Program-made: the position numbers and the translations under genes
Origin: Bdellovibrio sp. 22V
GTDB taxonomy: Bacteria; Bdellovibrionota; Bdellovibrionia; Bdellovibrionales; Bdellovibrionaceae
Assembly: GCF_030169785.1 (NCBI RefSeq)
Contig: NZ_CP125854.1
Location: forward strand, 2,604,001 to 2,668,000
DNA: 64,000 bases
Direction of reading: 5' to 3'
The notes under the pieces: model-generated
Database searches by the model: none
What the model was told of the DNA's origin: nothing
The model's input: the letters and a program-made list of their open reading frames with translations, nothing else
Shown here: positions 49,533 to 55,608 of the stretch, one piece after another
Position numbering within the stretch: the first letter of the stretch is position 1
How the letters are laid out: each line of letters starts with the position of its first letter

Positions 49533-50837
49533 ATGCAGTGTTGGAACTTTTCCAGATCCCAAAAACAGGTGATGTTGATTCTTTTTTTTACGGTGCTCGC
49601 ACCTTTCTGTGCGCATGCCGAGAAATGCCAGGTCACGCGTTCCATCCTTCGTTCGATTAAAGAACGATCGCAACACTATGACGTCACAAATCTAGTGAAC
49701 GAAGTTCGTAAGTGCCGCTCTGAATATTCTGCGGCAGAGATGGCTCAACTAGATCAGTACTATAAACAGGGAAAAATGGCTGAAGCCAATCATCAACTCG
49801 GACGACTGGAATCCGCGGCTCAGTATCGCGACGTCAGCGAAGATGTCGCGCGCATAGAACAGCTTCTACGGGAAGGCGGCGGTCAAGCCGATAAAAAACG
49901 CCTGCACGCGGCTCTTGCAACGGGAAAGAAAAATCACGGAGCCGCTGCGAAAAACTGTGCGCCCGTCGATTTAAGAAAACATTTTGGTCCGCCACGCAAT
50001 CAAGACTCGATTGGCTGGTGTTACGCCTTTGTTGCCGCAGATCTCGTGTCATTCAAAAGTGGTTTCCGCGTTTCTGCGATGGATATGGCCGTGAACTTTT
50101 CACCGGAAAGATCCTCCGCAACGGAAAGATTCTTGCTGAAGAAGGGCGAGACTCACACTGATGTCATGGGTGGTATTCCCGCAAAGGCCATTGAACAGCT
50201 TCGCAACAAAGGATTCTGCCGGGAAAAAGATTCTCCTTCAGAATTTTACGGCAACCGCGACCTTAAGGGCTTCGTGGATCTGCTGGAGAAAGCTTCCGAC
50301 AAGTCGAAGGTGGATTATCTTTACACCAAATTCACCGAGCCTTCTTTGCGAGAGGACTGCGACCAGAAGCCCCACACGACTCGAAAAGAAATGTATCAGA
50401 TTATTCAGAAAAGTTATCCTAGTAACGTCGTTTACAATTACAATGAACAACGCTGTCAGAATCGCGTGGCCGTCAATTTGCCGAAGGTCGAAAGGATCAC
50501 AGATAAAGCAAAGTTCGCGACACCGTCGCATGAAAAGCGGAAAGAGATCGTAGATTTCATCGATAACAAGCTAAATAAAAAACTACCGTCGGCCATTGCT
50601 TACGAAGTGGAAGACTTGCTGGACATCCGGCCCGCGCAAATGGCACATGCCTCTATCATCGTAGGCCGCAGAGTGAATCAGCAAACCGGACAGTGCGAAT
50701 ACCTGCTGCGCAACAGTTGGGGCAAAGCCTGTGTCTATATGGATAAATACCAGTGCAACAGCGCCGATGGTTCGGTGTGGATTCCGCGGGAAGATCTTCA
50801 TAACACCACCTACGAAGCGACATCTTATGAAAAATAA
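49533..50837 (+). CDS. Secreted papain-like cysteine protease
   Basis: 434 residues. Signal peptide in the first 29 (MLILFFTVLAPFCAHA after a polar start), a helical charged prodomain-like segment (about 30-140), then a peptidase C1-like domain: Gln157 and Cys163 in PRNQDSIGWCYAFVAADL, His372 in QMAHASIIVGRR and Asn394 in LLRNSWGKAC. The Q-C-H-N order and NSWG motif are the papain hallmark. Several cysteines suggest disulfides. The start is uncertain: ATG 49533 or 49572. It overlaps the next exported gene by 11 bp. A digestive role against protein prey is inferred. Confidence 0.83.
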   Translation: MQCWNFSRSQKQVMLILFFTVLAPFCAHAEKCQVTRSILRSIKERSQHYDVTNLVNEVRKCRSEYSAAEMAQLDQYYKQGKMAEANHQLGRLESAAQYRDVSEDVARIEQLLREGGGQADKKRLHAALATGKKNHGAAAKNCAPVDLRKHFGPPRNQDSIGWCYAFVAADLVSFKSGFRVSAMDMAVNFSPERSSATERFLLKKGETHTDVMGGIPAKAIEQLRNKGFCREKDSPSEFYGNRDLKGFVDLLEKASDKSKVDYLYTKFTEPSLREDCDQKPHTTRKEMYQIIQKSYPSNVVYNYNEQRCQNRVAVNLPKVERITDKAKFATPSHEKRKEIVDFIDNKLNKKLPSAIAYEVEDLLDIRPAQMAHASIIVGRRVNQQTGQCEYLLRNSWGKACVYMDKYQCNSADGSVWIPREDLHNTTYEATSYEK

Positions 50838-51267
50838 ATTTGGCGGATTTCTTATTCTGATTTCTTTAATGCCTCTGTCTGCCCTTGCGCATTCTTTCAA
50901 GTGTCGTTCTGGAAATGTCGAGATTCCTTTCGGTCCCGACCAAAAAGAATCGAAAGAAGAAATTATCTGCATGACGACGGAACCTTTGCGTATTCTTTCG
51001 AAAAATTGCCTGGAAGGTTCGTGCGAGGCAATGACAAAACCTTATCCTCTTTCACAGGATCAACATAAGATATCCGCCATCGGAACACCCGGCGCCAATC
51101 TATGCACACGCTTAGGCGGTCATGCGCAAGTTGTGAACTTCCTAGTTGACGGCAAAACCACTGAACTGGATCGATGCTTGTTTAAAGACGGATCTTTTAT
51201 GGATCTAGGATCTTTCTGGAAGTTCATGACGGCTGAACCAGATAAGCGCGCTGAGTTTTTGAGGTAA
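50827..51267 (+). CDS. Exported protein overlapping the papain-like protease gene
   Basis: Start at ATG 50827, 11 bp before the protease stop; the frame is open much further upstream but that lies inside the protease. 146 residues with a signal peptide (GGFLILISLMPLSALA) and a mature part with six cysteines (FKCRSG, IICMTT, KNCLEGSC, NLCTRL, DRCLFK). Translational overlap with a secreted protease suggests co-secretion; a propeptide-like chaperone or inhibitor is possible, as for staphostatins downstream of staphopains. Family not recognised. Confidence 0.65.
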   Translation: MKNKFGGFLILISLMPLSALAHSFKCRSGNVEIPFGPDQKESKEEIICMTTEPLRILSKNCLEGSCEAMTKPYPLSQDQHKISAIGTPGANLCTRLGGHAQVVNFLVDGKTTELDRCLFKDGSFMDLGSFWKFMTAEPDKRAEFLR

Positions 51268-51291
51268 TCGCAATATCTTATCGCAAAAAAA

Positions 51292-52668
51292 CTAGCGAAC
51301 GCCCGCGCGCGGAGCCGTCGCTTTGTTTGCATCAACAAGTTCCGCCATGCGCTCGCGCAAATGAGAGCATGTCGATCCCAAATCTTTTACAGCGTTACTG
51401 ATTTGTCTTTGTCCATAGCCACGCTTGTTAAAGTGCTCGCGCAAAGCTGTTTCATCTTGCTGGCAAAGCGTATCCACACGGCGAACCAAGGCACGGTATT
51501 CCTGCGGATTGTTGCGCGCAAAATCCAAAGTATCTTTCGCGGATCCCGCAAGCTTGGTGCAATCTTCCGTCGCGGTTTTTGAACGCTTGATACAAAGAGG
51601 TTTATTATTTTTGATTCCAAAGATAACAGGATTGCAGAGAACCACAGCGTCGCCCCCGTCATTTCCAGAAATGGATCCATCGGAAGGAGGATGTTTACAC
51701 GAATAGGTGACTCTTTTTCCGCTGGCATCCATCACTTCTCTTTCAGACACCGGCAGGCAGCGTCCCTTGCCATCTCGACCGGAACCTTGCAAAGCCCACC
51801 CTGCGTATATGCAAGCCAGACGTCCTTTAGAAGTGACTTCATCCACATCCAAGTTGTCGTTGCCCTTAAGGTTTCCAACGTCACTGAGATTACGTAAGCG
51901 GAAGTCCTCCACTCTGCGATCATTGCTCACGCGCTCTAACACCGCGCCACTGGCATCACGGCTCTCGACAGTCGTTATCGGATCCGCTGTGGATGGTCTT
52001 TCCACTTTCGCGTCCGGGCCCAATTCAATGACAACCGGTTGCGAAGATGCTGGAGTCACCACTGTTTTTACGACAGTGTTTTTTCTTTCCACAGGAGCCG
52101 AGAAAGCCGCAGAGCCTTCGTCTTGCGCGATTTCCACATGGCGAGCCAGCGTCGCGGCATCAATATTCACACGCGCACCGGAGTAATCTTTTTTCTCAAA
52201 TTCTTTTAAAAGATTACGAGATACCTCATCAGAGCTGCCCCACGGAGACGTACAGACGTTTACTCCGCTGTGAGCGTCGCCAGGGCATTTCACGCATAAA
52301 TACTGCGATCCACCTTGCACACGTTTTTCGACTTGGCATCTTTCATCAGCCGCATAAGACGCCGCAGGTTTGAGCAGCTCCCACGTAGCGCACACTTTGG
52401 GCGAGAACGTCATTTCCTCCAGCCATGGAAAGATGGAAAAGAGTTTGGAACGCTTTTCACTGATACGCTGACCACTTTCAATCAACTCGATATTATGGTT
52501 AAAAGCTCTCAGCTCTTTGATCCACAGTTCTTGTTTTTCAGGCGTCAAAGCGCGGAACTCGTCGTAACTCAGTGTGATTTTGTCTGTCGCTTTATAAAAT
52601 GCATTTTGGGCCCCCGCTGCGAGAGCAAAGAAGCAAACCAGAGTGAATAAAAAAGTTCCAGTCTTCAT
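51292..52668 (-). CDS. Large exported Cys-rich hypothetical protein
   Basis: 458 residues with a signal peptide (ending ALAAGA). N-terminal helical domain, then Cys pairs (KVCATW, ERCQVE, YLCVKCPG, NVCTSP), a Val/Thr/Pro linker (NTVVKTVVTPASSQPVVIEL), and a C-terminal Cys-rich region (RLACIYAG, GRCLPV, YSCKHPP, LCNPVI, LCIKRS, EDCTKL, LCQQDE, STCSHL). It converges on the protease/partner operon with a 24-bp gap. AAGGAACTCGGG precedes the ATG. It could be a large secreted substrate, inhibitor or adhesin; unknown. Confidence 0.7.
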   Translation of the reverse strand: MKTGTFLFTLVCFFALAAGAQNAFYKATDKITLSYDEFRALTPEKQELWIKELRAFNHNIELIESGQRISEKRSKLFSIFPWLEEMTFSPKVCATWELLKPAASYAADERCQVEKRVQGGSQYLCVKCPGDAHSGVNVCTSPWGSSDEVSRNLLKEFEKKDYSGARVNIDAATLARHVEIAQDEGSAAFSAPVERKNTVVKTVVTPASSQPVVIELGPDAKVERPSTADPITTVESRDASGAVLERVSNDRRVEDFRLRNLSDVGNLKGNDNLDVDEVTSKGRLACIYAGWALQGSGRDGKGRCLPVSEREVMDASGKRVTYSCKHPPSDGSISGNDGGDAVVLCNPVIFGIKNNKPLCIKRSKTATEDCTKLAGSAKDTLDFARNNPQEYRALVRRVDTLCQQDETALREHFNKRGYGQRQISNAVKDLGSTCSHLRERMAELVDANKATAPRAGVR

Positions 52669-54738: not shown

Positions 54739-55608
54739 GTGGTTTTCCGCTCGATTTTAACTCTTATTTACGTCTTCATGGGCTGTTCTGCCGGAGCGAC
54801 GACTTCAAGCCTTAATGATGGACCGAACTGTTTCAATACAACTTTGCATGCTAAAGGGTTCACCAAGGACATTGTTTATTCCTCTGTTGAAGAAATGAGT
54901 TTCTATCTTGAGACTTTTTGTCGCGAGAAAGGCCCTCTGCCACAGAAAGAAACCTTGGCTGGAGACGTCATTATATTTCAAGAAAACGATGGCGAAATCT
55001 CTCATTCTGCTGTCGCCTTAGCAGACGGAAAAATTCTGGAAAAGAACAGTTTGTATGGCGGACGCACAGAAGCGTTTGAGGGAGATCCCTCGCCGGGAGT
55101 TTATCTTGTTCATGCTCTAAAGAACTCACTGTACTTCAAAAAAATCTTCGCGGGCTCGAAGGAGCACACAGCTAAAATATATTCCTGTGATGAAACCTCG
55201 ACACACCGAAAGCGACTCGAGTCACTCAACAACCTTCCTCATATCAAAACCCTTCTGCAATTTCGGAAAGTTCTCGCAGAAGTCGTCGTGCTTTCCGAAC
55301 CAAAAGACGTCGAAACGGCAATTATAAATAAAATCCTTCCGCACTTCGAGAGCAACGGGCTTCTCAAAGTTTTAGATGCACCTGTCACTGACAACGCGGA
55401 AGGACAGTATCGTTATGCTCTCGCCAGATCCGCGGCTTATCAGTGGTATCTTTTAAATTGTTCGGAAAGCTTAAAGAAGTACGACGAATGCTATGCTCCA
55501 CATCTTAAAAAATCCGTGGAGCTTGTCGATACTTTGTTTGAAAAAATAGACTCTTTTAATTCGAAAGCTGTGCCTGTGACGTCTGCGATCTCATCACAGA
55601 ACGATTAA
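54739..55608 (+). CDS. Exported NlpC/P60-like peptidase candidate
   Basis: GTG start at 54739 with GAGG five bases upstream. 289 residues with a signal peptide (about 20 residues; a Cys at 16 in MGCSAG could also be a lipobox). A papain-like Cys/His fold is suggested by Cys31 in DGPNCFNTTL, the GDVIIFQEN strand at 75-83, His89 in EISHSAVALADG and the following Asn in EKNSLYGG, the order in NlpC/P60 and related cell-wall amidases. The C-terminal half is helical. Assignment is moderate. Its 3' end overlaps the convergent MFS gene by 53 bp. Confidence 0.55.
   Translation: MVFRSILTLIYVFMGCSAGATTSSLNDGPNCFNTTLHAKGFTKDIVYSSVEEMSFYLETFCREKGPLPQKETLAGDVIIFQENDGEISHSAVALADGKILEKNSLYGGRTEAFEGDPSPGVYLVHALKNSLYFKKIFAGSKEHTAKIYSCDETSTHRKRLESLNNLPHIKTLLQFRKVLAEVVVLSEPKDVETAIINKILPHFESNGLLKVLDAPVTDNAEGQYRYALARSAAYQWYLLNCSESLKKYDECYAPHLKKSVELVDTLFEKIDSFNSKAVPVTSAISSQND

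Follow-up and report, generated by a model that had tools for sequence, protein, structure and literature searches.

A gene for a papain-like cysteine protease and a gene for a small six-cysteine protein, which overlap in a stretch of 64,000 nucleotides from Bdellovibrio sp. 22V (contig NZ_CP125854.1, positions 2,604,001 to 2,668,000; this whole stretch is referred to as the window), are near-obligate companion genes that are kept across Bdellovibrionota in either order. Their genomic context supports the small protein, called the partner here, as a dedicated companion or regulator of the protease, and we see about an even chance that it is a dedicated exported inhibitor, which would guard the periplasm of the predator until the protease leaves. 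The pair is real, widely conserved and functionally suggestive; a protease with a small partner is of a kind that is already known and does not constitute a new category. In the window the pair comprises the following features:

49533–50837, + strand: gene for a papain-like (C1-type) cysteine protease, predicted exported (open reading frame (ORF), 434 amino acids (aa))
49620–49952, + strand: helical N-terminal region of the protease, about residues 30–140, between signal peptide and catalytic domain (modelled secondary structure)
49953–50834, + strand: papain-fold catalytic domain, residues 141–434 (structural alignment of the AlphaFold2 model)
50827–51267, + strand: gene for the six-Cys partner, predicted exported, a divergent DUF333 relative (ORF, 146 aa)
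50827–50837, + strand: 11-base-pair (bp) overlap between the end of the protease gene and the beginning of the partner gene (sequence)
51079–51204, + strand: DUF333-like stretch of the partner, residues 85–126 (Pfam 13.2 bits and hhalign)

The ATG of the partner gene is located at 50827 and the TAA of the protease gene ends at 50837, and the resulting 11-bp overlap is likely to bring about translational coupling. An earlier note on this DNA, made from the sequence alone, had described a C1-like protease with Cys163, His372 and Asn394 and a 146-residue six-Cys protein overlapping its stop by 11 bp; the residue positions match the ORF translation exactly, and the overlap agrees to the base. The signal peptides of both proteins, and of a third, Cys-rich protein encoded next to them, were assigned by eye on the basis of a hydrophobic stretch at the N-terminus. 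Scans for promoters and terminators at the locus gave site numbers no higher than in shuffles.

The linkage was followed through 99 related genomes, ranging from genus to order level, with a partner profile from 30 sequences and a protease profile from 34, an initial contig search with the single protein as query having given no match. The partner profile yielded 69 matches in 43 genomes and the protease profile, which gave 150 protease positions among the matches listed, had matches in 69 genomes; 30 genomes contain neither. Among the matches listed, a protease is located no more than 300 bp away from 50 of the 69 partner matches, in each of these cases on the same strand and never on the opposite one, with the protease upstream in 36 pairs and downstream in 14. 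Two more (G004:C28, on inspection, and G085:C371) are adjacent as well, bringing the count to 52 of 69, compared with an adjacency of about 0.1% per partner expected by chance. All 43 partner-bearing genomes carry the protease, whereas 26 of the 69 protease-bearing genomes lack a partner match, i.e. the dependence is one-way (Fisher p 3e-10, kinship not corrected). Five non-adjacent partners (G012, G017, G030, G047 and G044) are separated from a protease by about 2 kilobases (kb), a gene for an HExxH protein lying in between, and another (G034) has its protease 3.4 kb off. Two (G054 and G008:C13) adjoin an HExxH gene in a stretch where no protease is present, three (G090, G012:C1:70735 and G004:C1:205111) have neither neighbour, and the last six of the 69 matches are weak (E >1e-7) and correspond, in the stretches examined, to other DUF333-like proteins or to no clear ORF.

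The pairing extends through the phylum. In 240 genomes the partner was found in 83 and the protease in 165, and 82 of the 83 partner-bearing genomes contain the protease, the exception (G017) having one by the earlier profile. Strong partner matches (E <=1e-10) in genomes outside the order of the window numbered 45; 34 of these are located within 400 bp of a protease among the matches listed, and inspection of ten of the remaining 11 revealed nine more adjacent pairs, giving 43 of 45, with one partner not adjacent (G187) and one at a contig end (G257:C69). The earlier note had raised the question whether the two genes are always neighbours, which holds for the great majority both in the 99 genomes and elsewhere in the phylum, but not without exception; a partner standing alone in many genomes, which it had named as evidence against its interpretation, is not the pattern seen, the great majority of the partners being adjacent and each of the 43 partner-bearing genomes carrying a protease. 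On named contigs, 59 protease loci were found in Bdellovibrionaceae, Bacteriovoracaceae, Oligoflexia and a few others, 37 of them with the partner next door and on the same strand in every case; this set has at least 6 loci in common with the 99-genome set, so that the counts are not independent.

The loci contain 101 distinct proteases, a set biased toward partner loci in that some loci were chosen for their partners: in 66 cases a partner lies no more than 300 bp away (55 downstream, 11 upstream), 30 are solo and 5 are situated at an edge. The genes overlap in 57 of the 66 pairs, which is an upper bound as longest-ORF starts may be too early, and the commonest spacing is a gap of -10 (12 of 66 pairs; the window pair, read from its ATG, has this spacing too), followed by -3 (8 of 66). 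In a tree of 93 catalytic domains, made by a quick method and containing many weak forks, 11 rows are partner-first, and at least 3 changes of order fall on well-supported branches. Thus, the pairing outlasted the reversal of gene order, which favours contact between the two products over an explanation by shared promoters alone. The distances among partners and among proteases correlate (Pearson 0.80, 2145 pairings), a value confounded by shared descent and no proof of contact. That the partner might be a mere passenger, co-transcribed with the protease and making no direct contact with it, is in our view highly improbable: operons can carry along divergent, short, exported proteins, but phylum-wide conservation, both gene orders and paralogous clusters in one genome (G000, that of the window) far exceed what hitch-hiking would give.

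The window protease belongs to the papain-fold enzymes and has an intact Gln-Cys-His-Asn site, as judged from its model and its motifs. It contains the motifs NQDSIGWCYAF, AHASIIVGRR and LRNSWG and the catalytic set in papain order, Gln157, Cys163, His372 and Asn394. Among 34 aligned relatives, Q157, C163 and H372 show no variation and N394 is conserved in >=90%, and in a second set of 47 rows H372 is invariant and the other three are each conserved in >=90%. The AlphaFold2 model (predicted local distance difference test (pLDDT) 83.7, predicted template modelling score (pTM) 0.83) can be superposed in VIA-align on dionain-1 and cathepsin S with Z ~17 and a root-mean-square deviation of ~3 over 185–196 residues; for residues 141–434 against dionain-1 (5a24) the values are Z 17.3 and 3.0 Å over 196 residues. 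Foldseek matches the model to 5wdk, a secreted dipeptidyl aminopeptidase from Parabacteroides (E 5.6e-8), and a profile of the 34 relatives finds cathepsins and papain-like enzymes of the PDB by sequence (best E 2.2e-10). Peptidase_C1 (PF00112) is matched at E <=0.01 by 24 of the 34 relatives of the one set and by 23 of the 47 of the other (best 6.3e-9); the window protease itself gave no PF00112 match in Pfam even at E up to 10 and none in NCBIfam. Among the distinct paired proteases, 63 of 66 keep Q-C-H-N and the other 3 are truncated before the Cys, i.e. all paired proteases that contain the Cys region retain the set and the partner thus goes with potentially active enzymes. Solo proteases keep it in 28 of 30 cases, two carrying Asp in place of Asn. 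Two further C1-like proteases of 347 residues with short N-termini and no partner are encoded in the genome of the window (G000:C1:1213000-1222000 and 2461000-2471000).

The N-terminal region of the protease (residues ~30–140) is mainly helical in the model, has no Pfam match and may constitute a pro-region. Its length bears on the idea that the partner is a periplasmic foldase needed for folding or maturation of the protease, a role to which we give a minor yet appreciable probability. Lipase-specific foldases serve lipases, and the adjacency data apply to a foldase in the same way as to an inhibitor. Moreover, some paired proteases begin with a short N-terminus and thus have no obvious pro-region to guide folding, as 18 of 52 proteases with the partner downstream and 8 of 11 with the partner upstream have <100 residues before the Cys. 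According to the accessible part of PMC3462683, related Bacteroides C10 enzymes failed to express in active form, and a chaperone role was once proposed for a staphostatin in work cited there. Against a foldase, 30 of the 101 distinct same-fold proteases do without a partner even in a set biased to partner loci, and long N-termini are commoner in proteases with the partner downstream (median 162 residues before the Cys vs 58.5 in solo proteases), the reverse of what would be expected of a partner that replaces a lost propeptide. A partner acting as stand-in for a missing pro-region is therefore rejected, as long N-termini accompany the downstream partner and not its absence.

The partner contains exactly six Cys residues (26, 48, 61, 66, 93 and 117), and its N-terminus, MKNKFGGFLILISLMPLSALA, resembles a Sec-type signal by eye. 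C61, C66, C93 and C117 are invariant in an alignment of 30 partners; in one of 38 sequences the invariant residues are C48, C93 and C117, with C26, C61 and C66 conserved in >=90%. The AlphaFold2 model, based on 38 sequences, is confident (pLDDT 86.5, pTM 0.76) and exhibits a beta-rich core and short helices. Its best matches are too weak to use, both in Foldseek (SsgB, E 0.065, template modelling score ~0.25) and in VIA-align (a PilZ domain, Z 4.5 over 66 residues), and the viral structure library gave nothing at E 0.001; this lack of a good match for a predicted model does not prove a new fold. By sequence, no solved homologue was found at E 10 with the single protein or at E 1 with the profile. 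A hydrophobic core of the signal type is present in 59 of 66 partners by a crude count, and a lipobox-like motif in only 1 of 66 by a crude pattern. The partner is therefore probably a soluble protein that could exit together with the protease. This and the signal sequences of both proteins, assigned by eye, would suit a co-secreted subunit that widens or directs the specificity of the protease or anchors it in the prey. We nevertheless consider such a subunit quite improbable: no extra binding domain was recognised in the small partner, and no protease-partner fusion was found among 136 protease and 101 partner ORFs.

Profile comparisons suggest that the partner is best regarded as a divergent relative of DUF333 that carries an extension at its N-terminus. 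On its own it scores 13.2 bits against Pfam DUF333 (PF03891; E 0.11), under the cut-off of 25 bits. With class A and class B as working names for the window-like pairs and for the partners of a second cluster type described below, DUF333 is matched at E <=0.01 by 1 of 38 class-A rows and by 13 of 13 class-B rows, and hhalign aligns class A with class B at 98.2% (E 3.7e-14, 97 columns). It is this alignment, together with the DUF333 match of all 13 class-B partners, that makes the window partner a DUF333 relative. The window partner shares with DUF333 a Cys-containing core with NP, a C-x-x-x-GG-like stretch and C-x-F-x-D-G-S, and differs from it by a score under the cut-off and an extra beta region at the N-terminus. 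DUF333 occurs beyond Bdellovibrionota, with one in E. coli, and was found in none of four genomes that have related solo proteases and whose records are labelled outside Bdellovibrionota. No function of DUF333 was found in the literature searched, whose retrieved portions name the domain only as a label within tables or lists. At three loci (L168, L171 and L172) exported proteins carry two DUF333-like repeats, and the stretch examined around them contains no neighbouring protease.

How would the partner act as an inhibitor? Protease and partner would be made together via translational coupling, and the partner would fold in the periplasm of the predator and bind the protease, which would thereby be blocked or held as an inactive complex, sparing the envelope proteins of the predator. 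Once exported to prey or medium the protease would turn active, the partner being left behind or removed. We favour an inhibitor because inhibition is the role described for small proteins encoded beside exported cysteine proteases of bacteria (PMC3462683, as far as its accessible text goes) and because Bdellovibrio already uses such a design with Bd3460 (PMC4686830, likewise); the absence of a partner from many genomes with such proteases argues against a strict need for it. Several observations weigh against this view. No partner match is present in 26 of the 69 protease-bearing genomes, so that not every such protease requires the partner. One of these genomes (G035) nevertheless has a protease with a long N-terminus that is close to the paired ones, and four others (G010, G011, G021 and G022) contain a second, close protease with no adjoining partner. 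Some partners adjoin a gene for an HExxH protein and not a C1 protease directly, known protease-inhibitor folds are absent among the fold matches listed for the partner, and adjacency and overlap would be expected equally for a foldase or a co-secreted subunit. The earlier note had considered an inhibitor, a chaperone or a delivery factor; adjacency and the presence of the protease in 43 of 43 partner-bearing genomes point to a dedicated companion, for which an inhibitor is the likeliest of these roles by analogy. Beside the 30 solo proteases no convincing small Cys-rich neighbour was found.

The closest functional parallel comes from Bdellovibrio bacteriovorus. According to the accessible part of PMC4686830, the exported protein Bd3460, whose gene lies just downstream of that of its enzyme, Bd3459, inhibits the enzyme and protects the predator, and the synteny is kept in periplasmic predators. 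The present pair is alike in that a predicted exported predator enzyme is encoded beside a small, predicted exported partner, located just downstream in the window; restraint of the enzyme, demonstrated for Bd3459/Bd3460, is suggested for this pair by analogy. Bd3460 can serve two enzymes, in keeping with those genomes of the present set in which proteases outnumber partners. The molecules differ, as Bd3459 is a DD-endopeptidase and Bd3460 an ankyrin-repeat protein, whereas we find a papain-fold protease and a six-Cys protein whose model is beta-rich with short helices and contains no ankyrin repeats, i.e. no stacked helix pairs.

Staphopain is assigned to family C47 and staphostatin to I57/I58, and Spi resembles the SpeB propeptide. 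The partner is not a Spi-like propeptide copy, as BLASTP against the N-terminal region of the protease gave E 0.81 and the models show the putative pro-region as helical and the partner as beta-rich. In the accessible text of PMC3462683, small proteins encoded beside exported bacterial cysteine proteases act as inhibitors, with co-transcription setting the stoichiometry. The examples given there are SpeB-Spi of Streptococcus pyogenes, in which a small specific inhibitor is encoded beside a secreted papain-fold protease, and the staphopain-staphostatin and Bacteroides C10 pairs, in which a secreted papain-fold protease is co-transcribed with a small, mainly beta protein; the Bacteroides pairs with staphostatin-like proteins occur in either gene order, as is the case here. 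The staphopain analogy drawn by the earlier note thus holds as a functional likeness but not in location, since staphostatins are described as cytoplasmic (PMC3462683), whereas the partner has a signal sequence, six Cys residues and a DUF333-related family. Staphostatin, which has a lipocalin-like beta-barrel fold, is not among the fold matches listed for the partner, an absence that excludes nothing. No PADLOC model for anti-phage defence matched at E 0.01. A publication on this Bdellovibrio pair was not found in the open-licence literature, which leaves out most subscription journals, and PMC12096733 and PMC10318531, as far as accessible, concern neither this protease nor DUF333.

Self-protection of a predator from its own digestive enzymes is known mechanistically for one group, Bd3459/Bd0816 with Bd3460, and the available portion of PMC4686830 calls that work the first mechanistic examination. 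A near-obligate, phylum-wide pair would provide a second, independent and easily testable case and would offer a first function for DUF333. The partner might also serve as genomic marker for finding predation proteases.

A second type of cluster is present in the genome of the window itself (G000:C1:1733500-1743500), where a DUF333 partner lies between two other C1 proteases and opposite the genes for a 703-residue HExxH protein and a cyclase-like membrane protein. Three more loci (L165, L173 and L174) have the same composition, i.e. an exported HExxH protein of 640–700 residues, a cyclase-like membrane protein, one or more C1 proteases and a DUF333 partner. Pfam recognised neither the HExxH nor the cyclase-like protein (L081, the cluster in the genome of the window, and L174), and both labels therefore rest on motifs seen by eye. 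We may speculate, tentatively and with the balance tilted against it, that proteins of the DUF333 type represent a novel family of protease inhibitors destined for export and that Bdellovibrionota possess a phylum-wide self-protection kit, in which many digestive proteases of the papain type, and perhaps also the HExxH proteins linked to them, would each have their own periplasmic DUF333 partner; if this is true, locating the partners would map the arsenal of prey-digesting proteases of the predator.

The pair is faced by a third gene:

51292–52668, - strand: gene for a Cys-rich 458-residue protein with 14 Cys, predicted exported (ORF)

The stop codons of this ORF and of the partner are 24 bp apart in convergent orientation, in agreement to the base with the earlier note, which had also suggested that the three genes form a secreted system. 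Apart from this convergence in the window, synteny speaks against such a trio, largely refuting it, and we regard it as barely credible. Five close relatives of the 458-residue protein (G020, G018, G001, G008 and G014) are encoded 23–34 kb from the nearest protease among the matches listed, and a sixth relative (G043) occurs in a genome with no protease match. A weak exception is a 353-residue ORF (G090) with a C-terminal match (E 3.9e-5), located close to a partner match with no listed protease beside it. The 458-residue protein and six homologues gave no Pfam match over the cut-off; four congeners have full-length relatives that are 56–64% identical, and other families contain weak homologues of its C-terminal part. 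Further downstream, positions 54739–55608 (+ strand) of the window encode an exported protein of 289 residues that matches NlpC/P60 below the cut-off (E 0.0054), possibly a hydrolase of the papain superfamily.

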